Shown in pieces: positions 19,601 to 41,251 of a DNA stretch of 41,274 bases. The DNA is from an uncultured Opitutales bacterium (GTDB taxonomy: Bacteria > Verrucomicrobiota > Verrucomicrobiia > Opitutales > Seribacteraceae). The notes under the pieces were generated by a model. That model saw nothing but the letters and a program-made list of their open reading frames with translations. It had not been told where the DNA came from and did no database searches. The number at the start of each line of letters is the position of its first letter. Position 1 is the stretch's first letter. The stretch spans positions 1 to 41,274 of the forward strand of contig CALSMY010000010.1 in NCBI GenBank assembly GCA_943787575.1, written 5' to 3'. The position numbers were made by a program, and so were the translations under genes.

Positions 19601-22600
19601 TATTTTCTTCATCACTACCAGAAGAATTTGAAGCCACAATGGTGACATTAAAATCGAGACCTGATTGTAGAGGTGTTCCAAAAATTAATCCCGATTTTTC
19701 ATCGATGGACAATCCGGAGGGCAACCCGGTTGCGTTAAAATCAGTTGGCCCTTTGAGTGTTTCCACCTGATAGGAGAATTCTTCCCCGTAGGTCGCAACT
19801 AATGCAGAGTCGATAAAATTAAAAGCATTCTCCCTCTCCTTTGGATTAAGGGCATGTGCATATATTCTGAAATCGTCAATCAAACCGTTAAAAGCAAAAT
19901 TAGTTGAGTCATAACCCAAGTAAATAGTTGGATCTCCAGTAAGGTTGCCTTTTGCATTTACGGAAGCAGCTGCTTCTTCGTTATTAATGTAAAGCCGGAG
20001 TTTATTACCATCCCACCATAGAACTATATGTAACCATGTTCCTAGGGGTAAAAGAGTCGGCTCAGTAGAGCGCCATCTTGAGCCCACATAGGCATTCGCA
20101 CTTATGTATCCATCTTCAATCAATATATTAAAGCGACCCGAAGAAATTACATTGGCGTCACTGTCCTCAGTATTCATCCAAAAACTAAGAGAGAAAGAGT
20201 TTCTCAAGTTTGGTTTGTCATTGGATTCGTCGAGATTGGTTTTGATTTTTAAATCATCAAGGAAGCGAATCGCCTGACCTTTTTTGCCAGCAGCGGAATT
20301 ATTGATAAATAAATCGAATCCCGAATCGTTATTGTCGACAAAACCATGATTTTCAAAGCCCGAATAATCTATAATTTCTATGCCGTCCAGGGAGTCGAAC
20401 TTCCAGTGCGCTATTGCATCCTTAGGTAATAAAATAACTGGAACATTGTCAAAAATCGGAGGGAAAGACTCATAGCGATGTGTGCCAAAATCTCCCTCGC
20501 CACTACCATAAATCGTTTCAATTTCTTGGTTGGTTAATGTACGTTCATAAACACGAAAATCATCCAAGCTTGGCGAGAAGCGGCTTCCGCCTTGGAGTAC
20601 ATTTCCAATCGTGCGTATGTCAAGTGCTCCTCCATTGTAAGTGGTTTCTTTAAACTTTTCTTCGCCATCGATAAACAGGGAATAGCTATTTTGATCTGAC
20701 TTTAGGGCGAAATGATGCCATTTCGGTTGTTCTTCTGTACCCGATAGCGAGGTTGCATAAAAATCTGAGTCTGACACACCTGAAAGAATAAATTGTTCAT
20801 TTCCTGCAAGAAAAGCGGGAAAGTTGGACCCCGAAGACCAGGTAAGTACATATTCATCACCAAGAGGGTTATGAATTGGATATTTGAACCAAGTTGAGAC
20901 TGTCCAATTAGGCTGGGAGAAGAAAAGTGAGTTGTAATCAAGATCAATTTTAGCGTTTTGAGGGTCAATGGTATCAAAACCAATACCCGAAGTGAATTTA
21001 CCTTCAGTATTCAAATCTGCATCGATTACCATACCGTGCCTTAGGGTATCGGAATAATCCTCAACTATGGATCCGCCAGTTTCATTAAAGGGATAGTAAA
21101 GGGTCAATCCTTGACTAACCGCAAAACCAGACTCTGCCAAATCATCAAGTAATCCCCATTTATGAGCCAAATACCCCTCAACCATTTCGCGTTCAAAAGG
21201 TTCAAGCAGTCGGTCGAAGACGAGAATTTCTCCGATGGAGCCTGTCAGCATGCCTAAATTGGTTCTGGGGTCGAGTCCAAGGGTGATTTGCTGTAGCGAT
21301 TCATTTTCGCCACGAAATACATTCAACCAGTTGTATGAACTTGCCTCCAATGTCCAAGGGTTTTGGCCATCATCGCCTCCGATAACCACGCCATCACCAT
21401 AAGCACTTGCAAAGATATTAAGAGGGCCGCTCAAATTACTGAGTATCCCTACCTTCATTGATTGACCGGAGGAAAATTTAACCGAGGGAAGGGAGCCAAA
21501 ACCGTTTTCTTCATAGGTAGGCATTTGGTTGACAATAGTTTGAATCGCATCTTTGGCATTTATTGATTTATCAACCCAGATGGGAATGTTTGCTTGGTCC
21601 AGCAATGAGTCTCTTTGACCATCTGCATCAATATCAGTCGCATCTAACCAAAAAATCAAGCCGTCCATACTGTGCTTGGTAAATTGGGTGTCGATCGTTT
21701 TGAAGGTCATAATTTGTTGAGCCCAAGTTTCACCAGCAATGTTTTTGGCATAGGCTCGGAAATAGTAGAGCTTGTTTTCTTCGAGGTTTGTGGAAATGGT
21801 TTTCTCAAAATTCCCAATATCAGCAGCCTGACTGAGGACTAATTTGTAGTCCCATGATGAATTGTCGTCTGGATTGGCCGAAGTAGAGTTGGATTCGATA
21901 CGTTCATCTCCCCAAAAGATAATCACTTCGGAAGGATCTCCTCCCTCAGAACGAGAATTCGCTTGGGCAAGTTGTATGCCAAATGGATCAAGTTGAGCGT
22001 AGGGGTGGTCATCTGAGAGGATATCCTGCTGAAGGCTCCATTTGTGAGCTAAGTACCCTTCTAGGGTTGCCCGTTGCAAGGGGTTTAATTCACCCGAAAA
22101 AATCAGGATTTCTGCGACTTCACAGGCTGAGTTTTCAATGCCTTTACCTCCAAGCTGTAGTTGTCCAGGGCCAAAGTTTTGGTTGTCTGATTCTCGGGAT
22201 TCCAGGACTTTTAAAATACTGTCCTGCCAGAATGAAGCCCTGGGGTCCCCGGAATTATCACTAATGGTTCCCACATGAAGGTGCCATTCATTATCAATAG
22301 GATCGCCGAACGCATAGATGTTACCACCTGCCCGCCAAAGGCCTATGCCATCCTGATGAAACCCAAAATAGAAATCGTTATTCCTGGAAGTGATTACCTG
22401 TTTGTTATTACCCCCTGTAAATCTGGCCAAGGTAAGGATGGTGTAACCAGTTTCATGAAGAATTGAATTAAAGTTATAGCCTGTCCACATTTGGTCATCC
22501 TCCCCGTCAAAACTCACGGCTGGATTTCCATTGAGTGCAAAAGATAAAAGCCTAGGACTTCCGCTTACATTGTTAAAGCTACGATCTTGGTTCGGGCGGG

Positions 22601-25600
22601 CCGATTGATCCTGCCACCTACTGAGGGTTTGTCCATTCTGTCCACTAATTTGTTCGGCATCAAACCATGCCTGAATACCAGGTATGGTATCATATTTAAA
22701 AGTGTCACCCAAAGAAATTTCTTCTTCAATGATTTCCCCACCAATCGATGCCAGGTTGGCCCTTAAGATGACTGACTGTGGTCTTGCCTCCATCGCAGGC
22801 AGAGTATTAATTTGCGGCTTTTCAACCACCCGGTATTCGACCAACCCGGTTTGATTGGCATCTCCTGCAAATACTTGAGAGATTTCATTGGCAGATAATC
22901 CCCGGTCGTAGACTCTTACATCATCAACGGATCCCAGGAATGCACCAAAATTATCCAATCCAAAACTTCCTGAGGGTAAACCAATAGATGGTACATCCTG
23001 GTGTATGGGGACAAAACCATCTCCAGAAGAAATTTCCGGTTGGTCGACCAGTTTACCATCAAGGTAAAGCTTTAATGCTTTTGTGGTTTCTCCATAACTT
23101 ACGGCCAAGTGATGCCAATTTTTTTCAATCTGATTGACCTTTTTCAGCCCGCTGTAGCCAGGCGGTGACGCTTCAAGATAGCTATGATTCTGAGGTAATT
23201 TATTGGTCAGATTCCATTTGTGTGCCAAATAGCCCTCGATTTTTTCTATATTTTCACTACCCAAATCATTATTAAAAATAAGAACTTCTGAAATTCGTCC
23301 CGTCCATAAACCAGCCCCATCACCTGTCCCCCCAATTGTTACTGGAATATTAGAAGTGGATTTAAGGGCACCTGTTAGGTTGCTTTGGAGCGATTGACTG
23401 CCATTGACTTTCATGAATAAGTTATGACTCATCGAACTTAGGTTTGCAGATGAATAACGGATTGTGATCAAACTTGGACCTCCACTAAATCCATCATGTG
23501 TCCAAATGGCATCAGAACTCGTTCTCAGGTAAGAATTTCCTCCAGAAGCAGTATTAATGGCAGGACCCCATATTCTGTGGCCATTTTTATCAGCTCTGTG
23601 GATCGTTAATGCCCAGGAAAAATCGTAGCTGTTACTATTCATCCAACCCGTTTGAGTTCCCTTACCAATGGGGTAGCAAAAATGATCGAATGCAGTTTGG
23701 TAAAGAGTCGCAAAAATTACGATGTCATCCCAACCTTCAAAAGTACTCACACTGTTTTCGAGAAAAAAGGAATCATTGGTAATGTCTATACAGCTGTTAT
23801 CGTTAAACCCATTATTCAACCATTTAGGAGACCCGGAAAGAATCTTTGCGTTATGTCCAGATTGACTTTTATCCCTCCAAAACCCAACGGTTTGACCACT
23901 AGCTGGCGGACCTTCTGCACCTGGACTTGAACCTTTGTCCATACTTTCAATATCGGCAGAATCGAGCCATAGTTTCAAGTTCCACTCCGGTTCTTGCAGG
24001 GGTGAGAAAGGGAGTTTTAAACTCTCGTTTGTATTTTGCAAAAGTGCTGTGGAATTAACCTCAGTTCGAGTGCCGTTTACAATAACCTGTGCTCGGATGG
24101 TCCCTTCGTCATTTACAACAAGGAGACCATTATTCGAGTCACCTTCATCGTAGATTACTTGTTGGCGGTAACCTATGATTGGTTGGTCGGTAATATCATC
24201 CTCATAAATTTTGAGCATTTGCTCTTGGCTAAGGGCAGTATTGTAAAAGCGTAGTTCGTCTATCTTACCAAGGAAATAATCCTGCTCGATGGGGTCTGAG
24301 CCACCAACATTCCAGTACAAATAGTCAGACAAATCGGCAACCATACCGCTGGGTAATTCGGATGTTAAAACGGATTGGCCATTGATAAAGAGTTCTATAG
24401 ATGAATTCTGTTCGTTCACCGAGACTCCGACCTGTGACCAAGCTGATTGAGTAACCTTTTGATCAGACTCGACCAAAACGACATTATCCATGTTTTTATA
24501 TTGGAAAAAGATCGTACCATCCTTGTTTAGACCAAATTGAATTGGGCCTCTTCTAGCCAAAGTGGAACGACTTTGGGTGCCGAATAAATTATATTGATCA
24601 GACGCCGATGGATGTATGGTGGTTAAGGATGGAGGACCTGAGTTGCTAGATGGGGTAGAAAACCGTAATTCGATTGAGGGAACTTCAGAGGTTACAGCAT
24701 GGTATACGGCCAGGCTGTAATTTCCTTCCGCAAGTTCAATAGAATCGATGACTTGGTTGCTTTGATTCTCACCTAGGTAAACAAGTAGTCTTTCATCTGT
24801 TTCAAAGTATCCATTCTGGTTTTTATCAAGCCAGAGTGCTGATTGCTCACTAATATTTGCTAACTCCCATTGGTAAGCGCCCGATTCTTTGGCCTGAAAA
24901 ACTCCAGTAAAGAGAGTCAGGGAATTATTATAATTATTTTGTTCAGTAAGCTGAAGTTCATAAAAATCAGCACCTTCCGTAAATTTGAGCTTCCGGTTGA
25001 AATCAAATTCCAACTGATCGAGCATATTCCACTTGTTGGCCAGGTAATATTCAATGTTCAACCGTTCTGTGTTGGAGAGTTCGGAATTAAACAATAAAAA
25101 GGCAGATACTTCACCCTTACTGGTTTCACTATTAGTGCCTAACTCATTTCTCCACCCACCAAACCTTATTCTTCCTGGGTGTGACGAACTGTTAGATGCT
25201 CCTTCACCATTTATTACTCCGGGGACAAGATTCTTCCAGGTACTGCCTTGGTCATTGCTATTCATGGTGGCAGTATGAAGGTGCCAGTTTGTATCAGAGG
25301 CATCGGGTCCGCTGTAAAGCCAGCCATTAAAGTAGAAACGGTTGTTTCCACCGTTATGATATCCAAACAGCCAGTTGTGATGGCTCGCAATCAATCGTTG
25401 ATTATCATTTCCTGTTTGTCGGGATATAGAAAATACAGTGTAGTTTTTACTGTTGAAGGATGAATCAGTTCCAAGCATGTCAGTCCCATCAAAATTAACT
25501 GTCCATTTACCTCCCGAAAACTTCCTTGTGGGGTCACCCCAGGATCTAGTGAAGTTGTATCCCTGACCAATTACGCTGTTGTTCCAATCCAGAACGGCAT

Positions 25601-28600
25601 TGTTGGTTTCATTAAAGTCAAAGCTATTCTCGTTACTTGCATCCATCCAGATAACCAAACCGGGAATGTCCTGCGGACTGAAGGTGTTAAGATCGATGGT
25701 TTCCTCATCCTTAAGCAGGGAGGTAAAGGTTGGTTGTAAGGTTAAAAGGTTTTCAATCTCGGACAGGTAATAGTCACTTGGTTCTAAATCAAAAGAAAAA
25801 GCGTTTAACTGACCCCGGGTGAATTTATCATCCCCAATGGTAGCGTTTACCCAAAGTGAAATGGAGTAGGAGTCATGATGGAGTGTGGATAAACTTTCTT
25901 TCGCGGGTACGAGAACATGGTCGAGATCGGATTCAAGGTTGAGGGCACTGTCAAATATGCCTGCTGCCCAGGTGGTCTTTCCATTGATCGAGGCTTCATA
26001 CTGTTCATAGTTGGTATCGAATGCGGTTAGTCCGAAGCCTAATTTAAAAGGGAAGTAAGCGGCTAGATCTTTGAAGGCAGTGATCTCGGGACCGGCATAC
26101 AACTTGGGATCAATTTGCATCCAAGTCATAAAAGTGCGTCCTTCGAATGATTCGTTCAAGTAACCGGTGTTTTCCGGATCTAGGTTAAGCCAGTCATTTG
26201 CGCCATCAAGAGTCAGTCCATTTCCTGAATAGCCCGCCGTTCGGGTGGCATTCTCGTCTTTTCCTTGAATGAGGGCATCCCTAAGGGGAATGACAGAATC
26301 AGTGGCAATATTACCAGAAGACTCGTCCAGTCTCCAAAATGCCAAAAGATTTTCTTTGATCTCTGGTTCTCCGGTTGACCAGTCTGAACCATCCGCACTC
26401 TGAGCATAGGCTCGGAAAAAATACTTTTGGCCTGGGATAAGACCAGATATATTTGCGTCAAATTCACCCGCGGACAGGGGATTGCCGTTGTTTAATGTGA
26501 GATTGTTTTCCCAGCCTGATATGGCAAGACCACCATCGGAAGAACCGTAATAAATGGTTACCAATGGATTTTCCAAATCGATATTGGTAAGTTCACCCGA
26601 AAGAAGGACCGAGTTGTTTGACTCCGGACTGGCTTGATAAAGTTCCACCACCGGTGGTTGCCTTTCATTGGAAGTAGTGAACTCTACACTTCCTCCAAGA
26701 TAAAGAATGGAAATTTCTGAAGCGGTCAGGCTACGGTTGTAAATACGAATTTCATCCATTGTTCCTTCAAAGCCAAATTCCTCACTTGAACTAGTTCCAA
26801 GACTGAGGTTTCTCTCAGCTAAAGTATTGAGGGGAATGGATGAGGTAGTGAGTAGGTCTGCAGGGAGTTGGTTGGTGAGAACCCATTTATTGCCTAAATA
26901 AGACTCCAGTAAATTTGCATCTACATCGGATAACTTGTTCCCAAAAGCTAAGATTTCGGCAATATCCAAATTACACTGCAATCCAGTAAGCCTACCAATT
27001 TGGTAAGAAGAGTAGGGGCCAGGATCGTTATCATTTACCACCAAGCGAACGATCATGTAATCTGTTATGGTCTCGAGATCAAAATTACCACTTAAGGCGA
27101 CTCCATTTTTAAAGACCTCAGCAGGGTATTGGTTGCTATGAAAATAAGTAGCGTTGTGTTGGGTGATATAATTTGAGTTTCTTTGGGTATGACCGCTACT
27201 TGGATTATGCCCCATGGGACCACCATATCCACTCCATACGGAGTTGTCTGGGGGTGAACGGAAGACAAAAAAGTAATCTTTGGCAAAAAATGTACCGTCT
27301 ATGGGTAGATAATCCCCAGACCTTATTTCGATGGCCCGACCATTATTGGGGCCGCTCATTGTATTTAAATAAGGGGTACCAACAGAGCTAGCTTCCCGTT
27401 GATTCAGGCTCTTATCCATCCATGCTGAAATATTACCAGATGGAGTTGTGTCTATTATGCTATCCGCATCGAGATCACTGGCATCAAACCATACTTCGGG
27501 ACTGAGGTTTTGAACATCGAAGACAGGAGTCAGGTTTACAGATTCGCCGTCAAGATAGACAAATACATCACCAACTTGAGTAGCTCCATTAGGAATGCCA
27601 GTGACGATATGGTGCCAGGTGGAATCACTAACAAAGGCATCGGATTTAGCGGTTATGTATCCACCCAAAAACATAGATATCTTTCCGTCCTCTACCCTTA
27701 ATGTCCAGGACTCTCCTTTTCCCTCCCCACCAAAATCGAGGAGGGTAGCATTTTGATCATTGGTATGAATCCATAGAGAGATGGATCGGGGATTATTACC
27801 TGAAATCCCTTTGAAATTTGGAGTTTGTACAGATTCATTAGAGTTGGATGTGAAGTAAAGAGCTTTTCCTTTATAACCAAATACTTCGCTTCCTTCATTC
27901 ATGCCAGTCATACGGGCAGGTGAGTTACCATGATTATCGATGATTTCATCTCCAATAATCTCATCAAATGTCCACCAACTTATTAATCCCTCTGAAGTGG
28001 GCTCACTCCAGATATCGGAAGATACTGAATTACTTCCTTTCCAACGGTAAAAAATAGTTTCATTCTTTTCAAATCCGTCGATAAATTGAGATACCCGGCC
28101 GCTGGAAAAATTGCGGTCATTTATGGTATATTGATTTTCCCATTCTTGTTCATTATCCCCCCCATTTACACTTCCCCAAAAGAGCGACATGTTTAGGGCT
28201 TCCCCACCATCGGAATGAATCTGGGCAGATGATAAAGCTCCGTTGGAGCTAATGTTGCGTGGACTGATACTTGAGAGAACGGGCAGAGATTTACTTACCA
28301 CTAAGTTAACAGTTGAGATACTTGTGCCTGCTTCATTGGTAGCGGTCATATTTACTTCAAAAACACCAGATTCTTGGGGTGCTCCGATAACTTCCAATCT
28401 TTTCAGGTCGAGGGATAAACCTTCCGGAAGTCCAGTCATACTCACATCATCAACCTGCCCGCTAATACTTATGGGGAATTGATGATAAACCTGCTGTTCG
28501 ACGATGTCCTCAGCCCGATAAATCTGATCAATCTCAACCGGTAATAATGTATCGTTGTAAATTCGAAAATCATCAATAACCCCGTTGAAATAGGAGTCAC

Positions 28601-29756: not shown

Positions 29757-30021
29757 CGAGAATGAAATCAGAACCGATTACAATATCACCTCCCGCAACC
29801 GTTTGAATGACAAGTGGTTTATCTCCCCGCAGGACAACTTCGACCTCTGGGCCAATATCTACATAGGTAAAGGTAAATACGCAGGTGTCGAATAACCAGG
29901 GATCTTCAATACCATGAGTGAATGATGTAGAAGTGATCAAACCCTCTCCGTGTGCTCCTCCTTCGACGAAGAAGCAACCCGACTTAGTATCAAAAACCAA
30001 GGTTCCGATATCCAGATCGAT
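29240..30021 (-). repeat. Gly-rich repeat 3 of 3, interrupted by a frame shift
   Basis: This is about 260 residues. It has GTLVFDTKSGCFFVEGG and FDTCVFTFTYVDIG, then a Gly-rich stretch (GSGAGGGAIKF, GGGGSGGAVHIFG) ending near SGHLIKITPP. The reading frame changes inside it at 29701-29704; the Gly-rich pattern is continuous only if the frame is changed there. Confidence 0.78.
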
Positions 30022-33000
30022 GGAGGATGCAAAATAATTTCCACCAATGAAAATTGACCCCGGGTTACTCATCCATTCTCCGGACACATCGACATTGCCG
30101 CTATGAATTTCTGCCTGGGCATATAAGGCTATACGTCCACCACTGGATCCCCTCGTTTGACTGGTGCCTGATAATTTCACCCCTTGGCCTGCTTTCGCCT
30201 CAATCCGCCCGAAGTTTTCGATCGATTGACCATCCAAGCGAATGGAGCCACCCGCTCCGGATGCAGAGGACCTAATGCCATTACCTCCATTGGCAGAGAC
30301 GATGACATTTGGTTCAATTTTTAATTTTCCAGCCGCTTTCAATTGAATGGATCCTCCTCCCGCACCCGAGCCATCCTGGCTGGAAGAACCACCAGAGCTT
30401 CCACCAAGTAAATTGTTCAACGAGGGATGACCGATTTCGCTTGCTCCACCGGAACCAATGGAGCCATGTCCCGCTCCATGTCCCTGTTCAGATGATTCGG
30501 TCGGTTTACCCGGGCCATTTCCAAGTAGTTGACCAGCAGCAGCTCCATCATATCCACCAAGGATAGCGATTCCACCACTACCATCCACATTTGATGAATG
30601 CCCGCCATCTGCACGGATGTCAGCACCTAGAACAAAATCACCGGATCGTGCTTCCAAAATTAATCCATTTGCTCCTTTAAGATTGATGACCAGGCTTCCA
30701 CCTAATTGAATTTCCTCAAAGACGAAGTGGCAAACGGAGTAGGGCCAGGAAGTTCCATCATCGTGACGGTAGGTTCGATCTTCGATGATTCCATAATGCC
30801 GGGTGCCATCCGAATGTTCCATAATACCTAAATTCGTATCTATGGTTAAGGTGCCACTGAACGAAAACAGATTAGCCTGTGCGATTAAACGGTCGAAACG
30901 AACGCTCCCTCCGGATCCCAAGTTCGCTCCTTCGCCTGGATTTGCGATTAGGTTGTCTTCGCCATCGTTATTCAAGGTAACCCGGCCACTGAGGAAAATT
31001 CTACCACCGGCTCCCCCATTTGCACCGCCTGTTACATCGAGTAAAGAATTTTCGGTGAGGGAAAGATCATCTGCCGATAAGCGGATTGCTCCACCTGAAC
31101 CCCCGGCACTCCCTGCCACACCATTACCTCCCAAGGCTAGTATGGAACCATCAATAGTGAGGGAACCATTGGCATCCACTGCCAGGGCACCACCACCACC
31201 ACCACCAGTTGTATCAACAACAAACCCTCCTCCGCCACTACCTCCGAGCAGGCTTGTAATTTTACCATCTCCATATGTTCTTCCCGAATTTTGGGTTGGG
31301 TTTGAACCGGTCCCTCCATGACCTGCTCCTCCAGGTGACGATGAGGATGTCCCACCGCCAGGGCCTTGGCCTCGTTCATTGACTGCACCACCGGCAAAAC
31401 CACCCGGACTTGACCCCGGTATTGGGGAATTATCTCCGCTTTGACCTGAAAGATCAAAGGTACTCCCGAGGTATCCGTCGCCGCTGATCTGAATACTTAA
31501 TGAGGCATCTCCGGAGACAATAATTTCGAGATCACCGCTTAGGCTTAATTGATCAAAGGCAAAATAACAGACTTTAAAAGTGTAGGCATTTCCCAATTCA
31601 TCATAAAAAGTTCTTTGGAAGACCTCACCATTTCGTGTATCTCCGTTGGTGTGTTCCCAAGTTCCCAAAGTTGTATTGATGAAGAGTTTTCCAGTTTCGT
31701 AGCTTACCCGGTCTTCAGCAGTAAATTGATCCGTTTGAGGTGCCCAGGAATACCCCCCATCATTGGAGGCAAAGGTACGATAGAAATAAGATTCGTTGGG
31801 GGATAATCCGCCGATATCCGCTTGGAATTTTCCATCATCTATAACCCAGATCTCAAGTTCTCCCCACTGATGACCCCATCCCTGGAATTGAGGGAGTAGA
31901 CGAATAGCCTGGGTATCCACACCCTCGAGCGAGAATTCTACCCACTTGCCCTGTTCCACTGGTCCCACAAGCTCATCAATGGTGCTGAAAAGATTGAAGT
32001 TGAGTTCATCATCGGCAGCGTATACCTGAATTAATTTGAGTTCATCATCTCGAGCGAACGGCTGGAAATAAAGCCTGGCTTTGCTTAATTCCCATGAGCG
32101 TTTGAAACTGAATGTGATTTGAGGGTCCACTCCATACCAGGCTGTCCAAGTGGATCGCCATCCATTTTTGGGCACCAGTCCATCTATTAATTTAGAGGCA
32201 GGATAGCTGGCTCCTTTATCATTGGGTTCGGGAATTGCTTTTACCAAAATTTCATCGGGTTCCAGTTTCCGAAGCCCTTTACGGATTCGTCCTAGACTGA
32301 CCGAATTTTCCCACATATCCAAATTGGTTCCTCCATCAGTATTTCCCCATAACAGAGTAATCTCGGCCGATGGTTCTGAAGGTACGGGTTTGTCATTTCT
32401 GAAAGGATGGGTGGGCAAGAGGTTAGGTTCTAATCCCCACTTATGTGCCAAGTAGCCCTCAATTTCACGAACTGCATTGGTTGGTAATACTTCGTTGAAA
32501 ATGAGTATTTCTGAAAGGTTTCCTTTCCAAAATCGGTTGCCGATAGGATTTTTGGAGAAATTCGAAGCCCGTACCGGGCCATCTGTGGTAATGCTAATTA
32601 TCGAAGAAGACCCGGCGAGGTAGTCCTGTGCGAGCCCATCTTTCCATTGCCCGTTTTCCTGAAACGATCCGTTAATTAGGTTGGGGTCGGACAATCCTTC
32701 GAGGTCGGAAAGGTCGAAGTCGTCTATATTTTCAGTGCTTATTTTGAGGAATTTCCATATGGTGGACTCCCCAGTCTGGAAGGCGGAATTTTGAGAATGT
32801 CCAAGTAAAAATCCCCGGTTTCCAGATACCCGTTTGGATACAATGAAAACGGACCTAATCGAATTGATTGACCGCTCGAAAGTGAGGAAGTCATTCCCGT
32901 CAAATTGTACTACACTCTTTCCATTTAATCCATTCAGGCTTAGCCCGGGTTGGTTATCACTATTCAATTGGGTGGCATGATTTCCATTGCCCGACAGGTC

Positions 33001-34851
33001 GTACAACCCACTTATCGGAGAGGGAGGTAAATAGGTTGGGTTGAATTGAGTTTTATAGGGGTGATCACTGGGCAGTTTATCAGCAAGTCCCCATTTATGA
33101 GCTAAATAACCTTCAAACTTTAGGCGGGTTTCATCCGATGCATTTTCAAGAACGATGAGTTCCCCGATCTTACCATCAAAGGGCATGTTGCTACCGAATA
33201 CACCATATCCAGTTCCAAGTGATGCAAATGGATTGGTGTCCAAGGGGTATTGTTCGGGGTTGGATAATTCAGTGGCGGATTGTTCGGTGCCATTAAAGAA
33301 AAACCTGGATGAATTATAATCGCTTGCTTTATTCCTGCTCCACACCTGCAGGCTGGGTGTGTTTGGTTCGATGGGGGAGTAATTTACTTCTCCTCCATTA
33401 AACCTCCAACTTCCCGGAGCGGCAGATAAAATACGGGTGTTTGCCTGCCCCCCAATGTGTATGAGAGGAGCGGTGCTCAACCAGGTGTCACTGCCGGGAA
33501 CGCCCAGAAGGTCTATCTCCCCTAACTCAATTTGTTTAGAATTATTAAACTCGTCCTGATTATTGAGAAAGGTAATCCGGTAAGTGCTGAAGTTTTGATC
33601 GTTTTCAAATGCGATCAGTCGATTCTGTTTGGGGCTATCAAATTCCGGAATTAGTTCTTCGGTGATCGTCGAAAAGGAACCATTGTTTTCCAAGCCTTCA
33701 AAAAGAAAACTGGAGGGATCTCCCTCGCGATCATCACTGTTGCTGGAAATAAAAGAAATTGCAGTTACGCGACCAGGGACGGGTAAATCGATGCTTAGGG
33801 TGGACTGGTTACCATCGGGTTGGACATAGGTCGTGAGTAAATCCTGGTCTACTAAAAATTCTGGCCCCTTGGTCTCTTCATAATTTGTGGGAGAGGCACT
33901 TATATTATTATCTTCGCTGTACATGCTGACCCGTTGCGAGTCAGTAATGGAAACGGCAAAAATAGAAAGATCGGGGTTTTTTCCAAGACCGAAACGGGAA
34001 TTTATAGATAGTGAATCTTTTGCCCCATCAAAATCGACAACCGGAAGCCCATTAATCACATTAGCAATTATCCCGGGTCGGCTTGGCAGGTCGCCTTGGG
34101 AAAATTCATTCTGGTTGGCACTATCCTTCCATTTTTTGACAAAGTTTTTATTTATGGTACTCGAATCATTGGCATCAAACCATGCCTGCAGGCTAACCTC
34201 ATTATTGGGTGACCAATCGGGTTGGGTACTGGCGTAAGGATGACTGGGGTCCACACTGAACATTTGTATCCAACGGTAGAATAAATAACCTTCGACTTTT
34301 TGTCTTTCCTCAATGGTAAGAACCTTGTTGAACGCAATGAATTCACCAATTTCGGCAGTGGAATATCCACGGTTTGTTCCATGCCCCCCAAATTGTAAGT
34401 ATTTGGGAAAGTGATTGTTGAAGTTTGTATTAGCAGCATTTGAATACTGGGTCACATTTCTAAGATCTACCCATGCATTGGCTAGATCTTCGGAGCCGTC
34501 AATATCCACTGCAACTAAGTGGAACCCATCGTCCCCAGAACTCAAGAACACACCGTTAGGAGGGCTTACTGTAAAGGTTAAGTTAGTCGATACCGAAACG
34601 CTTCTTGATATTTCAGTCGCACGACTACTCAAGCGAAGCCTGTCCGAGGACTTGCCAAAATTAAAGGTGCTAGGGAATTCACTGGCAATGGCGAGTGCAA
34701 TCCCATCAATAGCATCAGATTTTACCGTTGTTAGAGCAGTGAAATTACAATCAACACCTCCGATCGTTACTCGAAATACTTCATCTATTGAAACGGTAGA
34801 AGGTATGAACAGTTCGTGGCTTTCATAAGTTAATTGACTAACTACATTCAA
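29647..34851 (-). CDS. Giant protein fragment with discoidin-like insertions and Gly-rich repeats
   Basis: This 1,734-codon frame is internal; true coding runs from about 34900 to 29702. It begins inside an EGYLAHKW module. At 34580-34835 this module contains a small beta unit (VFRVTIGGVDCNFTAL) resembling the TVTING-type repeats of phage and surface proteins. Two more such modules follow, ending near 33091 and 32437. A discoidin (F5/8 type C) like domain lies near 33925-33490 and another near 32250-31830, with ASYPASKLIDG and GWGHQWGELEIW. The second one separates the two halves of an FnIII-like unit (ITLLWGNTDGG and YFYRTFASNDGGYSW). From 31707 two and a half Gly-rich repeats follow. The frame ends by a shift at the GGGG run at 29701-29704. 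Confidence 0.78.
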   Translation of the reverse strand: MNVVSQLTYESHELFIPSTVSIDEVFRVTIGGVDCNFTALTTVKSDAIDGIALAIASEFPSTFNFGKSSDRLRLSSRATEISRSVSVSTNLTFTVSPPNGVFLSSGDDGFHLVAVDIDGSEDLANAWVDLRNVTQYSNAANTNFNNHFPKYLQFGGHGTNRGYSTAEIGEFIAFNKVLTIEERQKVEGYLFYRWIQMFSVDPSHPYASTQPDWSPNNEVSLQAWFDANDSSTINKNFVKKWKDSANQNEFSQGDLPSRPGIIANVINGLPVVDFDGAKDSLSINSRFGLGKNPDLSIFAVSITDSQRVSMYSEDNNISASPTNYEETKGPEFLVDQDLLTTYVQPDGNQSTLSIDLPVPGRVTAISFISSNSDDREGDPSSFLFEGLENNGSFSTITEELIPEFDSPKQNRLIAFENDQNFSTYRITFLNNQDEFNNSKQIELGEIDLLGVPGSDTWLSTAPLIHIGGQANTRILSAAPGSWRFNGGEVNYSPIEPNTPSLQVWSRNKASDYNSSRFFFNGTEQSATELSNPEQYPLDTNPFASLGTGYGVFGSNMPFDGKIGELIVLENASDETRLKFEGYLAHKWGLADKLPSDHPYKTQFNPTYLPPSPISGLYDLSGNGNHATQLNSDNQPGLSLNGLNGKSVVQFDGNDFLTFERSINSIRSVFIVSKRVSGNRGFLLGHSQNSAFQTGESTIWKFLKISTENIDDFDLSDLEGLSDPNLINGSFQENGQWKDGLAQDYLAGSSSIISITTDGPVRASNFSKNPIGNRFWKGNLSEILIFNEVLPTNAVREIEGYLAHKWGLEPNLLPTHPFRNDKPVPSEPSAEITLLWGNTDGGTNLDMWENSVSLGRIRKGLRKLEPDEILVKAIPEPNDKGASYPASKLIDGLVPKNGWRSTWTAWYGVDPQITFSFKRSWELSKARLYFQPFARDDELKLIQVYAADDELNFNLFSTIDELVGPVEQGKWVEFSLEGVDTQAIRLLPQFQGWGHQWGELEIWVIDDGKFQADIGGLSPNESYFYRTFASNDGGYSWAPQTDQFTAEDRVSYETGKLFINTTLGTWEHTNGDTRNGEVFQRTFYDELGNAYTFKVCYFAFDQLSLSGDLEIIVSGDASLSIQISGDGYLGSTFDLSGQSGDNSPIPGSSPGGFAGGAVNERGQGPGGGTSSSSPGGAGHGGTGSNPTQNSGRTYGDGKITSLLGGSGGGGFVVDTTGGGGGGALAVDANGSLTIDGSILALGGNGVAGSAGGSGGAIRLSADDLSLTENSLLDVTGGANGGAGGRIFLSGRVTLNNDGEDNLIANPGEGANLGSGGSVRFDRLIAQANLFSFSGTLTIDTNLGIMEHSDGTRHYGIIEDRTYRHDDGTSWPYSVCHFVFEEIQLGGSLVINLKGANGLILEARSGDFVLGADIRADGGHSSNVDGSGGIAILGGYDGAAAGQLLGNGPGKPTESSEQGHGAGHGSIGSGGASEIGHPSLNNLLGGSSGGSSSQDGSGAGGGSIQLKAAGKLKIEPNVIVSANGGNGIRSSASGAGGSIRLDGQSIENFGRIEAKAGQGVKLSGTSQTRGSSGGRIALYAQAEIHSGNVDVSGEWMSNPGSIFIGGNYFASSIDLDIGTLVFDTKSGCFFVEGGAHGEGLITSTSFTHGIEDPWLFDTCVFTFTYVDIGPEVEVVLRGDKPLVIQTVAGGDIVIGSDFILDGKNASSSDGYGGLGVLNPWSGRSSQALTWIRPRGD
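29701..29704 (-). other. Frame-shift site D (one base too many)
   Basis: The plus strand has GGGG. Dropping one base joins GYGGLGVLNP to GVVEAPKHLPGYGPGG and keeps the Gly-rich repeat continuous. Confidence 0.75.
30022..30867 (-). repeat. Gly-rich repeat 2 of 3
   Basis: This is about 282 residues with the same order as repeat 1: GTLTIDTNLGIMEHSDG, YSVCHFVFEEIQLGG, then Gly-rich sequence (GAGHGSIGSGGASE, GSGAGGGSIQLKAAG) and the end MSNPGSIFIGGN. It is clearly homologous to repeat 1 but not identical in DNA. Confidence 0.8.
30868..31707 (-). repeat. Gly-rich repeat 1 of 3
   Basis: This is about 280 residues. It begins with a ~95-residue domain (TGKLFINTTLGTWEH, then FKVCYFAFDQLSL) and continues as a Gly-rich stretch with runs such as GGGGGG and phrases such as GGNGVAGSAGGSGGAI. 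It probably forms a beta-helix or loose Gly-rich coil. The Cys in VCYF is conserved at the same place in all three repeats. Confidence 0.8.
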
Positions 34852-35593
34852 GCTCTCTCTTCCAAGAAATGTGGATCCGAGAACATCGTACCCAAACCCA
34901 AAGGCTCCAGTTTCTTTTAGCTGATCTATCAGAAATTATGAAATTGTTCTTATACCATTCATCGGTTTGATCAGCGGCATAGCGGGCAACGGCAAACATA
35001 GTAAAGTCCCCAGTGCTGGTATCCCATTCTTTTTCAGTGTAAAGAGAATCCCCGCCTGCTTTCTTATCAGCTTTGGATTGTTGGTCTGTTTCAAATCGAA
35101 CAACCTTCAAACCAGTCCCATATCCATAGTCGACTAAAGTTGGGTGCCCCTGAGATATCATGTCATATCCGTTACCACTTTTGTCCATCCACTCCGCAAC
35201 ATCCTCATCACTTAGAGTAATACTTTCGGAGTCATTGGCATCCAAGTGGAAGACCACTTCCTGCACAACGCCTGGGTGCCAGGGAATTGGGTCGGGGGTA
35301 TCATTTGCATCATAATTCACCCCATTGGCCGCACTACTATCGAGCCATAACTGTAATCCCGGGTAATCCTGGGGTGAAAATTCTCCAGGTTTAAGAATAC
35401 CCCGACCCGGATTGATTAATTGTCCGGTAAGGGAAGCGGTGGACTGACGAAGATTGGCAGGTCCCAAGTTCACCGCAATTGGACTACTGGTTGGCCCAGT
35501 AAACCCGACCGGAGTAACCCCTTCTGATACGATTTCTCCAAAAGAAGGACGCCCCTTATCCCATGGGTGGGAAGAGGGCAGGGGACTCCCCAT
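34838..35593 (-). CDS. Giant protein, short internal fragment between two frame shifts
   Basis: This 251-codon frame connects two larger ones; the ATG at 35593 lies in the middle of a module end (LPSSHPW equals the usual LPxxHPY) and is not a start. After the module end it contains the first strand of an FnIII-like unit (STASLTGQLINPG). It then has the head of one EGYLAHKW module (YPGLQLWLDSS, near 35360) followed after ~30 residues by the head of another (EVVFHLDANDSE, near 35270). True coding in this frame is about 35570 to 34900; beyond that the sequence WSLWVWVRCS replaces the expected LGFGYD. Confidence 0.7.
   Translation of the reverse strand: MGSPLPSSHPWDKGRPSFGEIVSEGVTPVGFTGPTSSPIAVNLGPANLRQSTASLTGQLINPGRGILKPGEFSPQDYPGLQLWLDSSAANGVNYDANDTPDPIPWHPGVVQEVVFHLDANDSESITLSDEDVAEWMDKSGNGYDMISQGHPTLVDYGYGTGLKVVRFETDQQSKADKKAGGDSLYTEKEWDTSTGDFTMFAVARYAADQTDEWYKNNFIISDRSAKRNWSLWVWVRCSRIHISWKRELECS
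34898..34904 (-). other. Frame-shift site C (one base too many)
   Basis: RSAKRNWSL continues as GFGYDVLGSTF only if one T of the TTT run (AAA on plus at 34900-34902) is dropped. The sister modules read NWLFGYH and DFYFGFH here, which supports the join. Confidence 0.75.
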
Positions 35594-37860
35594 TTCTGAG
35601 CAAGGTAGCCTTCAAGTAGGAGACGTTCAGACTCTTCTAATTCGCCTTCAAATAAAAGGAACTCACCAATTTGACAGTTGGAGAATTCTAGCTGTGCGTT
35701 CTGCCTGGTCCATCCACCGAATGAAATATTTAGGGGGGTAAACCAATGATGATTGGAACCAGTTGGGGATCCTTTATAATAATTTCCAGCAACGGCATCG
35801 TTCCAAACATAGGCTCTTGGGTCGGAAGATTTATTCTGACCCTCATGAACTACTTCGAAAAGATGGAAGTTGTAATCCTTGCTAAATCCCTGGTCTACCC
35901 ACCCAAGGAAGTAATACCTCCCCATACTTCCAGCATGAAATCCCATCAGCCAATTGTCCCAGTTACGACTATTTGTCGAAGTGCTTGTAATTACTCTCTG
36001 GTTTAAGCCCTCGGTGTATCTGCAAACCGCCAGAGCCGAGTAGCCCGAGTTTCTCCAGCTTGTTGGAATTGAGTTGGGCTCATTTTGTAGCAAGTCATTT
36101 CCGTCAAATTCCACAACCGAAATGCCTTTATGACCATCGTGTGCAATCACAGGATTATTGGTATCGGGGCTTGAATCAGGAATAGATAAATCTCTCGATA
36201 TAGTAGAATTTATCGCCTTGTTTTTCCATGTATCAACTGGTGTGCCGACAGGATTGATTAGTAATTCGGTCTTGTTTTCAGCAAGTAAATCATTGGCATC
36301 AAACCAGAGAAAGAGAGAACTGGGCAAATCATCCGGGATAGGGACATAGTTAGTGATCGTTTCTTTACCCGTCCACTGAGTACCTGCGATGTTGGTTGCC
36401 ATTAAACGAACGAAATAGCGCTTGTCCGCATCCAGTCCCTTCATTTGAAATGTGCCCGGACCAAATCCCTGTTTGCCTAGGTCTAAACGATATTCCCAAT
36501 CATATAAATTGGTTCCCTTGTCCTCAGAGTCAGCAACCGCCATAAGGTAGGGTTCGTCACCCCCTGTTGCGGTGACATCATAGTGCAGGGTAAGGGTGGG
36601 CGTGCTGTCGCTAATGACCTCATCTAAGGTAACGACTGGTAGCCCGGCGGTAACTTGCAATGTGATTTGCTGTTCGGCGATGGATTGGTCCAAATAATAG
36701 GCTTCCAGGCTTATATTATATATACCTGCCTGAACAGGTGTTCCCGAGAGGTTCCCATCTGCCGGATTTATCGTGATTCCACCAGGCAGACCAGATGCGA
36801 GGAAAGCAAGAGGTTCTCCAGTGGCATCTACAAAAAGTTCGAAGTAAGATTCTGCCGGAGTTGTAAAAACAAGGTCGGGGAGGAGAAAAGACTCTTCCCC
36901 TTCAATGGAACCAAGGCTTGGAAAGACTGAGCTTCCTGACTGGTTATCATACATTGCTTTAATCCAGTCGGGAGAGCGGTTATTACTTGATACCCTGATT
37001 TCATCCAGCGCCAAGGGCAGAGTCGCTAAGCCGAAGCGCCAAGGAGCTGCACTCGGGTTAGTGGGGAAAGGGTTTTCAGGTAGGTCTTTCTGAGCGACTA
37101 AGTTTCCGTTTAGGTATATTTCAAGGGAATCATTTCCTTCATTTACTTGGGTGAATAAATGCATCCAGGTGGCTGGTTGTAGAGAGGAATTACCCTCTGC
37201 TTCAATGGCTTCTCCCCCAGAGATCCGATGGGTCGTTTGCGGCTTTAAACCAAGCAAGTTTAATCTTTCGGTAGGGCCATCCTGAAAGATGGTTACCGAG
37301 CTTATACGATCGCTCAGGTTTCCATCGAAAGTCAGGTGGTAATACTTGATTTGATCCGGGTCTGCTGGATCGATTAATGTCCAGTCCGAGAATATTTCGT
37401 TGTCTGACTTTACTTCGATAGAGAGATTGGTGGCAACGGAACCGCTGGGCACTCCATGTGCGAGCAGAAGGTTGTAGGATTCCCCCTCATCTAGGGCAAT
37501 GGGTTGAGAGGTGGTAATATCGGAACTACAGGTTGTATAATCGGGAAAAGTTCCACTCCTATTTTCATCGATCCATAGGGATGCAAAGTCATCGTCTCCG
37601 ATCTGTATCCGAAATTGATAAGCGGCAGATACGGGCGGACTGAATCGGGTCATTAGAGCAGTCATGAAACCACTGGATCTGGTGATGCCCAAATCAAGGG
37701 TTTTGAAATCATCCGCATTTCCAAAACTAATTCCTTGGTTGTTTGGACCTTTTTTGATGATGCGCCCACCATCTGGTTCGAGGGCTAAGAAAGTTTTCCG
37801 GTTTATCGAAATAGGTAGGTTGAGGAGTAGTATCGTACCCCAAGCCATAAAACGCCTCAT
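35470..37860 (-). CDS. Giant protein fragment with PA14-like, LamG, He_PIG and FnIII-like units
   Basis: This 796-codon frame is internal, with true coding from about 37790 to 35570. It starts within a LamG domain (FLALEPDGGRII). A PA14-like unit follows at 37670-37400 (AAYQFRIQIGDDDFASLWID). The LamG-type strands then resume (WMHLFTQVNEGNDSLEIYLNG near 37170, LALDEIRVSS near 37000). A He_PIG unit (GLPGGITINPADGNLSGTP) lies at 36880-36650, an FnIII-like unit (FVRLMATNIAGTQW) at 36640-36360, and an EGYLAQKW module (SLFLWFDANDL) to 35590. It ends by a single-base shift near 35570; the last ~30 codons are out of frame. Confidence 0.78.
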   Translation of the reverse strand: MRRFMAWGTILLLNLPISINRKTFLALEPDGGRIIKKGPNNQGISFGNADDFKTLDLGITRSSGFMTALMTRFSPPVSAAYQFRIQIGDDDFASLWIDENRSGTFPDYTTCSSDITTSQPIALDEGESYNLLLAHGVPSGSVATNLSIEVKSDNEIFSDWTLIDPADPDQIKYYHLTFDGNLSDRISSVTIFQDGPTERLNLLGLKPQTTHRISGGEAIEAEGNSSLQPATWMHLFTQVNEGNDSLEIYLNGNLVAQKDLPENPFPTNPSAAPWRFGLATLPLALDEIRVSSNNRSPDWIKAMYDNQSGSSVFPSLGSIEGEESFLLPDLVFTTPAESYFELFVDATGEPLAFLASGLPGGITINPADGNLSGTPVQAGIYNISLEAYYLDQSIAEQQITLQVTAGLPVVTLDEVISDSTPTLTLHYDVTATGGDEPYLMAVADSEDKGTNLYDWEYRLDLGKQGFGPGTFQMKGLDADKRYFVRLMATNIAGTQWTGKETITNYVPIPDDLPSSLFLWFDANDLLAENKTELLINPVGTPVDTWKNKAINSTISRDLSIPDSSPDTNNPVIAHDGHKGISVVEFDGNDLLQNEPNSIPTSWRNSGYSALAVCRYTEGLNQRVITSTSTNSRNWDNWLMGFHAGSMGRYYFLGWVDQGFSKDYNFHLFEVVHEGQNKSSDPRAYVWNDAVAGNYYKGSPTGSNHHWFTPLNISFGGWTRQNAQLEFSNCQIGEFLLFEGELEESERLLLEGYLAQKWGVPCPLPTHGIRGVLLLEKSYQKGLLRSGLLGQPVVQLR
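35565..35580 (-). other. Frame-shift site B (one base missing)
   Basis: The module end reads KWGVPCPLP in one frame and SSHPWDKG in the next. One base is missing, most simply in the CCC run (GGG on the plus strand at 35569-35571). This is the only shift of the opposite sign. Confidence 0.7.
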
Positions 37861-40800
37861 TGGTCCGTTGTTCCGGGGTGCCGTCCAGCCATATCCATCC
37901 CGAAAATGAATATTTATTTAAAGCGAGATTTTCCAATGAGTCATTGATCGGGGCAGTCAAATAATGATCGGGTTGCCCAAATAATTGGCGGGCTGAACCA
38001 GCTAATCCGTTAGCCCGCGAAACACCAAAATTATCAACTAGGTGATTTCGATAGGATGATGAGTCGGTGAGGATGGGTGTTCCCGAAGTTGGACGCATAT
38101 GCCATACCCCACGGTAGCCTGAACTCCACACCTCCCCGTTTATAGAATATGCAGGTGGGAACTCTGCTAAAGATGGATTACCCCAGTAGGCAGAAAAAGA
38201 GGTGTTGGCATCGAGGAAAGGGATTTTTACCCAGGCAACCAAACGATTGGCAGCCAGATCAAAAGTCTCAATCTCATAAGGGTATTCTTTTCCAGCGGGG
38301 TCAAAAAATCGTAAGTCATTACCCGTCCCCGATGCAAATTGTCTTACATTAAAACCGCTCACTGACCCATTCATTTCAATGAGCAAAGGAAAGTCCTCTA
38401 AAGTACTGGTGCCTGAATAGTTTGAACAATTGAATTCCATTTGCTTCGAAAAGATAGTGGGATCAAAAATACTCATCCCAAATGCCTTGGTTACTTTACC
38501 CTCATCATTTTGAACGATCACGGTTACCTGATATTGACCGTCTTGTACAGGTCTGCCACTTATCTCTCCAGTAACATTATTGATGGATAATCCCGCGGGT
38601 AATCCAACAGCTGTGAGGTTGCCTTCCCCAATGGGAAATCTTTCTATCATTGATGAGAAATCTTTTCCAACAAAGGCTTGCAGGTTTTGAGAAGAAAGGA
38701 TTATGGGAGGTCCACTTACGTAACCAGGGGAAAGAAAATTCGGACCGTCGGGCCTTTGGTTGGCATAAGACGCTGCAATCTTTTGGGTAGACTCGATTTT
38801 ATCCGATATTCTGACCTCATCAATCATTCCACGCCAAGCCTCGGTGCCATCTCTCTTTGAACCAATTCTGAACGAATCTACGGAACTTCCAAAGGGTCGG
38901 GTAATTCCGAAATATTCGGTGGCAAGATTTCCATTAAAGAAAATCTTGGATAGTCCGGAGTCTAAATCGGACTGAAGTACCCAATAATCCCAGCGATTAA
39001 TTGCACTTTGTGAAGTATAATCAAAAGAATTTGTATCAAGATTACCACTGCCTGTGAAAAACTCGAGATTACCTGCTGCAGATGGTAGCTGAACTTGTAG
39101 ATGTGTTCCTAAACTTGAGTGTGCATGGAATAAGGAATAATCATCAAGTAATTCGTACTGGTTTTGAGCCCAAAAAGAAATATTGAGCGTTTTTTCACCT
39201 TCAGCGAAATAAGATGTATTCGGCAATTCTAGAAAGTCGTCAATCCCGTCGAGGAAGAAAGCATTGCCAATTACGCCCTTTGGATTTTCGAGATTGGAAT
39301 TTCTGGCAATTGCATGCTGTCCAGACGCGTGGTCTTCAATCCTGTATTCCGGATCACCATCCATTCTCCAAACTGCCCGATGGTTTTTCCATACGGTGCC
39401 ATCGCTGGTATAATCCGGTCTGGAAGTAACGGCAGGATTACCCCACTTAACATAAATTGAGGTATCGTTTTCAAGTTTTGGCAAGAAGACCCAAAAAGAA
39501 GATGTTCCCAGCGGGTTCCATTCAATCAATTCGTAGGCCAATTCACTGGATCGGTCTGCTGAAAGGAATAGAATATCCCGACCCTCCTCGTCTGCGAATT
39601 GCTCATAATGAAATCCCTCAATTGATTGATTTAGCTCAACATACAAAACAAAATCTTCGGTCACACTATCCGCGTTGTATCCCGATACATTGAGCTCCAA
39701 CTGAAAAGGCCAGAGGGAGAAATCAGTTACCTCAAACTGAATTGGCTGGCTGTAGGTTCCCGCATCATTGGTGGCATGTAATATCGAATGGAAGGTTCCT
39801 CGAGCGGATGGTTTTCCGGAAATTACCCCATCTGCCTGGCTTAGACTAAGTCCGGTTGGCAATCCTTCTTCCTCAAACATACTAGCCGGGCGGTTGGTTT
39901 CGATCGTGAAATTTAAATCCTGATCAATACCAATAAAGTAGGGAGTACTGAGCAAAATCTCTGGCCGGTTTTCAAATGCGGGAGGGTTGATTTTGTAAGG
40001 ATGAATATCGGTCAAAGAATCTTCCACTGACCATTTGTGAGCTAAATAACCTTCCAGTTTTTCGATTCTATCTGAGGCCAGGGCTTCGTCGTAAATTAAG
40101 ATTTCTGCAATTTTAAAAGTCCCATGTTCATTGATGCCTGATTGTTCAAGCCCACCGATGATCAGGTCATCATTCTGGGCAGAGGAAGAAAAACCTTCAT
40201 CAAGCATGCGGATAATTGAAGTGCCATTTACCCGAATTGAGCGAAGGTAGGGAGTCTTATGAAAAGTGAAAACCTGAAACTGTTCTTTCCAGCCGGAAGG
40301 GGATGTGAGTACATCTTGTCCACTGGTACCTGTGATACCATAACTCGGGAGGCTGCTTTGATCATTACGTAAAACCCAGCTTGGATCATTTGGCCATCCT
40401 TTGCTCATTATAGTTGTACTGGGTGACATATCACTTCCTTCTATCACCAGCACTAAGGTGCCCTGATCTTCGATGTTCAAACTTTTGGATGAACTATAAG
40501 GGTAATCATTAATTCTAAGAAACTGTTCAGACCCATCAAATTGAAGAACGGATTTATCACCAAGTTCACGGTACAATATCGAAGGACCAAACCCATTTCC
40601 TGCATGCCGGTCTCCACCGGACTTGTCTCTCCAATCATTGACGGTTCCGCCAAACGGTTCATTGGTATAATCACCGTCGGCATTGATATCCGAAGCATCT
40701 AACCAAAGCAAAAGAGTCGAATCTAGCCAGGTACTTGCAGAGTAAGAAAAATCCCCTGTAGTAAACTTACCCACTTCTGACGACCAACTGGAACCAGCGT

Positions 40801-41251
40801 CATTGCTGGCAAGGAACCTGTAGTAATAATCTTTCCCCCTTTCCAACCCATCCATTGAGACTGAAAATTCACCCAGATTCATTGTTCCAAGATCAACTTT
40901 AGCGTCCCAGGAATATGTGGATGAAGCATTAATTTCTTCGCTTTGCCCCCCGTCTTCGTCTCCCCAAAAGAGGGTTACCTGGGGTTCCTGACCTCCCAGG
41001 TGTTGGGTCTCAATTAAATCGCCTTGATAGATTTTTGAAATTTCATCCATTCCGATGGCACGATCGTAGATACGTAGGTCATCAACCAGGCCGTCAAAAA
41101 ATTCCATCTGTACTGTTTGAGGAGAATAAGGGGACCTGTTTTTGTAGGGATGACTGCTTGCCAGATTTGATTGCAGTTTCCACTTGTGAGCGAGATAGCC
41201 CTCCACTTTCTCACGATCGCTATCCTGGATCGTTCCACTAACGACCATCAT
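37727..41251 (-). CDS. Giant protein, N-most fragment in window, with two DUF2341 units
   Basis: This 1,174-codon frame begins at an ATG inside an EGYLAHKW module, so it is not the protein start. It then has the tail of a LamG domain (GLVDDLRIYDRAIG near 41075) and an FnIII-like unit (40975-40750, VTLFWGDEDGG). A second EGYLAHKW module spans about 40720-40030, and a He_PIG unit (GLPTGLSLSQADGVISG) about 39950-39715. Two DUF2341-type units follow (about 39730-39380 and 38470-38100, with VKWGNP and AYWGNP), each continued by a LamG-like domain, with another He_PIG unit (GLPAGLSINNVTGEISG) between. The final 20 codons (SPRTRWWAHHQ) are read-through after a shift near 37790. Confidence 0.78.
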   Translation of the reverse strand: MMVVSGTIQDSDREKVEGYLAHKWKLQSNLASSHPYKNRSPYSPQTVQMEFFDGLVDDLRIYDRAIGMDEISKIYQGDLIETQHLGGQEPQVTLFWGDEDGGQSEEINASSTYSWDAKVDLGTMNLGEFSVSMDGLERGKDYYYRFLASNDAGSSWSSEVGKFTTGDFSYSASTWLDSTLLLWLDASDINADGDYTNEPFGGTVNDWRDKSGGDRHAGNGFGPSILYRELGDKSVLQFDGSEQFLRINDYPYSSSKSLNIEDQGTLVLVIEGSDMSPSTTIMSKGWPNDPSWVLRNDQSSLPSYGITGTSGQDVLTSPSGWKEQFQVFTFHKTPYLRSIRVNGTSIIRMLDEGFSSSAQNDDLIIGGLEQSGINEHGTFKIAEILIYDEALASDRIEKLEGYLAHKWSVEDSLTDIHPYKINPPAFENRPEILLSTPYFIGIDQDLNFTIETNRPASMFEEEGLPTGLSLSQADGVISGKPSARGTFHSILHATNDAGTYSQPIQFEVTDFSLWPFQLELNVSGYNADSVTEDFVLYVELNQSIEGFHYEQFADEEGRDILFLSADRSSELAYELIEWNPLGTSSFWVFLPKLENDTSIYVKWGNPAVTSRPDYTSDGTVWKNHRAVWRMDGDPEYRIEDHASGQHAIARNSNLENPKGVIGNAFFLDGIDDFLELPNTSYFAEGEKTLNISFWAQNQYELLDDYSLFHAHSSLGTHLQVQLPSAAGNLEFFTGSGNLDTNSFDYTSQSAINRWDYWVLQSDLDSGLSKIFFNGNLATEYFGITRPFGSSVDSFRIGSKRDGTEAWRGMIDEVRISDKIESTQKIAASYANQRPDGPNFLSPGYVSGPPIILSSQNLQAFVGKDFSSMIERFPIGEGNLTAVGLPAGLSINNVTGEISGRPVQDGQYQVTVIVQNDEGKVTKAFGMSIFDPTIFSKQMEFNCSNYSGTSTLEDFPLLIEMNGSVSGFNVRQFASGTGNDLRFFDPAGKEYPYEIETFDLAANRLVAWVKIPFLDANTSFSAYWGNPSLAEFPPAYSINGEVWSSGYRGVWHMRPTSGTPILTDSSSYRNHLVDNFGVSRANGLAGSARQLFGQPDHYLTAPINDSLENLALNKYSFSGWIWLDGTPEQRTNEAFYGLGYDTTPQPTYFDKPENFLSPRTRWWAHHQKRSKQPRN
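37785..37795 (-). other. Frame-shift site A (one base too many)
   Basis: On the minus strand the reading GAA AAC TTT CTT AGC must become a frame giving FLALEPDGG. Removing one T from the TTT at 37790-37792 restores PENFLALEPDGGR. The old frame then stops 60 bases on. Confidence 0.75.

Follow-up and report, generated by a model that had tools for sequence, protein, structure and literature searches.

The giant gene and its genomic setting

The window considered here is a stretch of 41,274 nucleotides from an uncultured Opitutales bacterium and corresponds to contig C10 of a 2.1-Mb genome that is 86% complete; the closest named locus is L032, from an Opitutales metagenome-assembled genome (92%). 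Six long open reading frame (ORF) pieces on the minus strand, P0001 to P0006, run from 41251 to 15773 and constitute one giant gene, which continues past the contig end at 41274. The part in the window (15773..41274) encodes about 8,500 C-terminal residues in six pieces with five frame changes and is cut at the contig end. In the encoded protein, domains are interrupted by other complete domains, some of which are interrupted in their turn, and this nested architecture is almost certainly real.

This assembly does contain all five frame changes. Single-frame database proteins that are 98-99.8% identical span all of them, with P0009 running across boundaries one to four between the pieces and P0007, a database entry without stated source, across the fifth. 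The six ORF pieces were analysed separately in their uncorrected frames. Since the copy in G007 has 7,347 residues upstream of the window's first residue, the full-length protein would comprise about 15,800 residues, and the window probably represents its C-terminal half. An ortholog in G023 occupies a single stop-to-stop frame of 14,789 codons, and stop-free frames of 10,771-14,789 codons, mostly reaching a contig end, were found in seven relatives. Judged by eye, the start of the G007 and G023 frames resembles a signal peptide. The protein is likely a secreted surface adhesin, presumably exported and anchored at the cell surface.

That the contig ends within the gene and that the frame changes five times would be in keeping with a chimeric assembly of a repetitive gene. 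This explanation is hardly credible, as the same nested order was found in separate assemblies (G007, G003, G002 and G004, which are 95%, 61%, 58% and 43% identical, respectively, across nest 2, described below), a result that already contradicts it; P0009 and P0007 carry this order as well, and the long stop-free frames of the seven relatives point the same way.

Domain families and profiles

The Pfam families recognised in the pieces were LamG_3, He_PIG, MBG_2 and DUF2341. LamG_3 (PF13385, ConA-like lectin fold) reached 389 bits over the whole of P0005, against a cut-off of 27.6. An F5/8 type C domain (PF00754) was recognised in an FnIII insert taken alone (32.2 bits, cut-off 28.2), and an F5/8-like copy inside another domain (B3, see below) stayed under the same cut-off with 20.1 bits. 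The PA14-like domain gave weak Pfam matches, all below cut-off (GLEYA, 16.6 and 15.0 bits; PA14, 13.4 bits). The module with the motif LWLDA...EGYLAHKW, about 229 residues long, represents a family here called B that is probably LamG-like, perhaps with the same jelly-roll fold, and was not named as such in the Pfam scans; matches to it occur in 48 of 240 genomes sampled from the phylum, the window's own genome included.

Profiles were made for LamG (A, AX2), B, FnIII (F), PA14-like (P), F5/8-like (D) and He_PIG (H) domains. In their final form, the profiles A, B, F and P contain only uninterrupted copies from the giant proteins of relatives; window copies had served as seeds in the initial round of A, B and P. 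D and H were built from the window itself.

Split hosts in the window

For seven hosts, profiles match on either side of the split, and three more were recognised by motif. P0001 opens with the tails of a B, a LamG and an FnIII domain, and up to three hosts thus have heads that lie past 41274, outside the contig. The first-pass annotation had claimed that heads are cut off from their tails by complete domains in at least ten cases, and this observation is confirmed. In what follows all features lie on the minus strand and are given in the order of translation, with profile positions in brackets; inserts were located by profile.

The first complete case is a LamG domain with its head at 37829..38089 (P0001 1055-1141; positions 8-89) and its tail at 36991..37299 (P0002 188-290; 93-190), which enclose a PA14/GLEYA-like insert at 37408..37791.

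The deepest nest lies in an FnIII domain that is interrupted in two loops. Its first strand, a weak match (E 0.33) also found in G022 and G023, is at 35405..35455 (P0003 47-63; 3-19), its second part at 32272..32370 (P0004 828-860; 22-54) and its tail at 31717..31842 (P0004 1004-1045; 50-91). The second loop, between the last two, contains the F5/8 type C domain that passed the PF00754 cut-off (31840..32250). The first loop contains B1, the head of which is likewise weak (35309..35359, P0003 79-95; 1-17, E 0.013), with a clear tail at 32398..33018 (P0004 612-818; 24-228). Two further B domains lie in the gap of B1, namely a complete B2 that contains a frame change (34231..35251) and B3, which is itself divided into a head at 33892..34194 (P0004 from 220) and a tail at 33052..33438 (P0004 472-600; 105-228) by an F5/8-like domain at 33523..33891. 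The alignment of the B3 head overran into the insert, and its boundary was therefore set by the F5/8 match; an earlier profile had given positions 1-92 and 167-232 for the two parts. The series FnIII, B1, B3, F5/8 amounts to four levels.

In nest 1, a LamG domain with its head at 27534..27977 (P0005 594-741; 2-152) and its tail at 26712..26843 (972-1015; 158-200) encloses one complete B cassette (26856..27500). Nest 2 is built on a LamG domain, A1, that is split twice; its head (26109..26342, P0005 1139-1216; 1-72) and tail (22881..23132, 2209-2292; 126-200) were found by profile, and its middle piece (23982..24209, about 1850-1925 of P0005) comes from alignment only. The first gap of A1 holds a second LamG domain, A2, with its head at 25827..26060 (P0005 1233-1310; 1-76) and its tail at 24222..24599 (1720-1845; 78-198), between which lie a B cassette (24996..25661) and a PA14/GLEYA-like domain (24651..24998); the second gap of A1 holds another B cassette (23175..23981). 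The FnIII domains that precede the two nests (27996..28259, P0005 500-587; 2-86, and 26373..26621, P0005 1046-1128; 5-84) appear, by motif and by eye, to have their last strands displaced behind nest 1 and nest 2, respectively. Finally, an FnIII domain consisting of a first strand recognised by motif (22734..22784, P0005 2325-2341) and a tail (21693..21950, 2603-2688; 17-92) flanks a B cassette at 21996..22679; in the G008 ortholog, the head was found by profile (1-22).

Guests thus serve as hosts in turn, in that B3 within B1 holds the F5/8-like domain and A2 within A1 holds a B and a PA14-like domain, and an FnIII domain of about 95 residues contains inserts of many hundred residues. The loops entered are few and are used again. 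These are, by profile position, about 72-78, 89-93, 125 and 152-158 in LamG, the first loop and a loop near position 50 in FnIII, and loops near 20 and near 104 in B. It had been proposed from the sequence that FnIII, LamG and EGYLAHKW modules are all split, the last by copies of themselves, and that the insertions fall at a few recurring permissive loops. Profile pairs were obtained for each of the three families, B1 being divided by other B copies, and the reuse of loop positions is as proposed.

Chance tests and structure models

A strict stack parser was applied to 20 proteins (four window pieces and 16 proteins of relatives, the latter also the source of training copies) and found 31 complementary head-tail pairs; when the order was shuffled 1000 times, the average was 8.3 pairs and the highest number 17. 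The window contributes two of the 31, both in P0005 (p 0.021); its other pairs were assigned by hand from the hit tables. A looser parser gave no clear excess over its shuffles. When the same profiles were applied to an unrelated giant protein, P0011, its LamG, B and PA14-like domains were found undivided and in tandem order, although two of its four B domains lacked the first 20 or so positions and no FnIII match was found; hence, the profiles do not themselves create splits. In an AlphaFold2 model, the split head and tail of A2 came together in a single jelly roll, and A2 is accordingly predicted by the model to fold as one domain around its inserts.

Some results weigh against nesting. With the strict parser, 203 partial tails and 97 heads found no partner; both AlphaFold2 models are poor overall (mean predicted local distance difference test scores of 52.1 and 55.1); the nest 1 host is not resolved in its model, and A1 was not seen folding as one. 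Moreover, the structural aligner reports only the first and last aligned residues, and that the residues it aligned are the A2 head and tail is our own reading. Of the two checks suggested in the first-pass annotation, structure prediction joined head and tail for A2 and did not resolve the nest 1 host, and profile searches gave heads and tails that complement each other within a few positions and are not in tandem order in the nested region; its reading that heads and tails belong together is supported.

The unpaired partial matches, together with the ordinary tandem order seen from about 21690 down to 16503, are what would be expected of a simple tandem array in which degenerate half-domains merely look split. 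Such an array is very improbable in view of the close complementarity of heads and tails, the joining of A2 in the model and the undivided domains of P0011, and the uninterrupted hosts of relatives already contradict it. These empty sites are the decisive evidence for splitting.

Empty sites and graded nesting in relatives

In an alignment of the window with ten relatives, the nest 1 LamG was uninterrupted in three (L037, L039, L042), and it was also found uninterrupted in G017 and G008. Both B inserts of nest 2 were missing in seven of nine relatives (ten orthologous rows, including the window).

A graded series of two to four levels was found at the FnIII domain that hosts B1. In G022 and G008, B1 is intact. 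In G013, 201 amino acids, equivalent to one B, are inserted near residue 20 of B1, and in G003 the insert of 671 amino acids comprises a B, an F5/8 and a B domain. The 428 amino acids inserted in B1 of G023 are read as a second split B that holds another domain, both B heads being weak matches. In G010 and G024, the arrangement F-B-F-F stands beside B1 in that FnIII loop instead. In this FnIII domain, the second loop is occupied by F5/8 in the window and in G003, G004, G007, G008, G010, G013, G022, G023 and G024, by a PA14-like domain in G011 and by a B domain in G006, orthology in the last two being assigned by position. In G023:C5 (residues about 9188-9362), a stretch of about 175 residues that is assigned to no family lies within B within B within FnIII.

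Among the relatives aligned or mapped there, no empty site was found for A2 in A1, for the PA14-like domain in A2 or for the B in the FnIII at P0005 2360, the last being kept in 11 relatives mapped to the site. These three are the older nestings.

Differences in cassettes between species

The B copies were assigned to sites by anchors with B masked, and a tree of 130 copies was calculated, in which s4 denotes the nest 1 loop and s5 and s6 the two nest 2 loops. The sites were defined before the tree was made; s4, s5 and s6 were picked for testing after it had been seen. The copies of s1 (9 of 9), s2 (9 of 9) and s7 (12 of 12) each formed a single starred clade, as did nine copies at the B1 position, and 10 of the 11 labelled copies of s9 fell in one starred clade, the eleventh being from G006. 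The copies from the nested loops were scattered, with the eight rows of s4 in five places and those of s5 and s6 in two places each; trees that force one clade were rejected (p 4.5e-31 for s4, 8.7e-14 for s5 and 9.3e-6 for s6). The host trees (11 and 10 rows; G002, G022, G023 and G017 excluded) followed genus groups. At these three nested loops, the inserted modules differ between species, while the host tree is vertical.

The s5 core of G004 was 64% identical to the s4 core of G010, with flanks at 13% and 27%; the same core was 32% identical to the s5 core of G003, with flanks at 43% and 37%. Similarly, the s6 core of the window was 30-34% identical to its counterparts in G002, G003 and G004, with 50-69% identity in the flanks, and 54% identical to a G006 cassette located in the loop of an FnIII domain, with 27% and 16% in the flanks. 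Similar modules sit in different loops, including loops of LamG and of FnIII hosts.

The linkers are shared at s5 and s6 and differ at s4; hence, core replacement is favoured at the first two sites, and s4 does not decide. Differing modules would also result if the same hot loops had received insertions several times independently, rather than by exchange of cores, and the differing linkers of s4, the emptiness of s4 in some lineages and the generally fast divergence of s6 cores agree with this explanation. We consider it somewhat unlikely, as the nest 2 linkers are alike (37-46% for s5 of G004, 50-69% for s6) where the cores share 28-34%, a pattern that fits core replacement.

Four points tell against such exchange. 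Some old sites appear to vary too, the B1 copies of G008, G011 and G006 falling outside the clade of that position. The s6 cores kept together by the tree (G003-G004, G003-G002) share only 36-37%, and since s6 cores diverge fast anyway, the low core identity of the window does not by itself show exchange. Same-codon use at the cassette ends was not clearly raised, giving no sign of recent recombination there. Lastly, DNA breakpoints cannot be placed because the relatives that show swaps are far apart (about 43-61% across nest 2). The odds that cores have been swapped are about even.

Proposed function

LamG, PA14-like and F5/8 domains are often glycan-binding. We read the gene as encoding a nested giant surface adhesin, in which LamG-like, PA14-like and F5/8 modules are binding heads held sideways by split hosts, and assign this reading a probability of about 0.7. 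Complete domains lie within FnIII and LamG loops, up to four levels deep; a new cassette may enter a loop with its ends close together, such that host and guest both fold, and the inserted lectin-type modules may bind glycans. At two loops, the cassette core may later have been replaced by recombination within conserved cassette ends, which would alter specificity and keep the architecture. The protein would thus likely grow and re-equip itself through nesting and swapping of binding modules. The display function, taken by analogy, is as probable as its opposite. A more complete picture can be offered only tentatively, at somewhat less than even odds. It would be a recursive cassette system four levels deep, with a vertically inherited scaffold, FnIII, LamG and B domains as sockets, lectin-type cassettes that move between host families, and a surface re-equipped by core swaps inside fixed ends.

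Tolerated insertions might also pile up as a neutral ratchet with no display function, the cassette differences being due to drift and loss; several loops are indeed empty in species that otherwise keep the gene. This is unlikely, given that most inserted modules retain the full-length domain profile over long divergence and that differing cassettes at one loop preserve frame and domain type.

Tandem duplication is the usual explanation for giant proteins in bacteria. Here, living relatives of one gene hold natural intermediates, from an empty loop to a four-level nest, through which the growth of giant proteins by insertion becomes directly testable. The loops that naturally accept whole domains may be of use for domain-insertion engineering, and the system is a candidate for the way in which uncultured bacteria alter the specificity of their surface.

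Other features of the locus and genome

Glycine-rich repeats, perhaps a beta-helix, separate nested blocks at about 29200-31700 and gave no Pfam match. In the tandem region, a B domain at 21129-21662 (P0005 2699-2876) lacks profile positions of about 103-170, its halves being only 23 residues apart; the change here is an internal deletion and thus the reverse of an insertion. At P0005 3628-3850 (window about 19000-18900), an ordinary LamG gave a match to the NCBIfam TafC fimbrial protein of 108.7 bits, against a cut-off of 410. A sulfatase gene lies near the giant gene (5971-7848) and would fit use of sulfated polysaccharides.

The same genome has a second region rich in LamG and B domains (G000:C7:163502-185255; L002, L003) near a contig end, the first part of which consists of short frames, some with internal stops. 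LamG-rich genes were found near several contig ends (41274 of the window and G000 contigs C3, C7, C9 and C20), as if the assembly broke within such genes.

Comparison with known systems

In RTX adhesins (AhLap, FrhA, MpIBP), a ligand-binding module interrupts an Ig-like host and projects from the adhesin axis, and in AhLap an RTX roll, a vWFA domain and an insertion form a short nest (PMC12077191, PMC10865825). The giant protein of the window likewise has modules inserted in split beta-sandwich hosts; unlike these adhesins, it has many hosts of several families, guests that act as hosts, a depth of four and species-specific cassettes per loop. No RTX family, and hence no C-terminal RTX repeats, was found in Pfam scans of the six window pieces, which cover the C-terminal half only; the C-terminal piece gave only a weak TSP3_bac match.

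A six-level nest with the recursive order A1-B1-C-B2-A2 is described for the cyanobacterial RNA polymerase rpoC2 (Si3), in a report that also states that 20% of multidomain proteins contain a domain insertion and that insertions are smaller than their hosts (PMC13114784). Recursion with guests as hosts is common to both systems. In rpoC2, as described there, nesting affects a single region of an enzyme subunit, where hybrid motifs are the chief insert, whereas FnIII, LamG, B, PA14-like and F5/8 domains nest in the giant protein, and some of its guests are far larger than their hosts, contrary to the size rule given in that text (PMC13114784).

Giant1-5 of Apilactobacillus are likewise very large extracellular bacterial proteins, and the opening of the abstract does not name nested insertion (PMC12863079). 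The multidomain LamG_3 (PF13385) proteins of the phylum share their LamG family with the window; P0011, the one unrelated giant compared, differs in having undivided tandem domains.

In the literature searched, neither this gene family nor an exchange of cassettes between nested loops was found described. The first-pass annotation had taken recursive insertion on this scale to be unfamiliar. What does appear to be new is the scale, together with the repeated use of loops and the exchange of cassettes; the principle of nested insertion was already known from rpoC2 and RTX adhesins (PMC13114784, PMC12077191). By analogy, the giant protein would work like the split-domain display of RTX adhesins, with their geometry repeated recursively and on a larger scale, and with an exchange of binding cassettes in addition.

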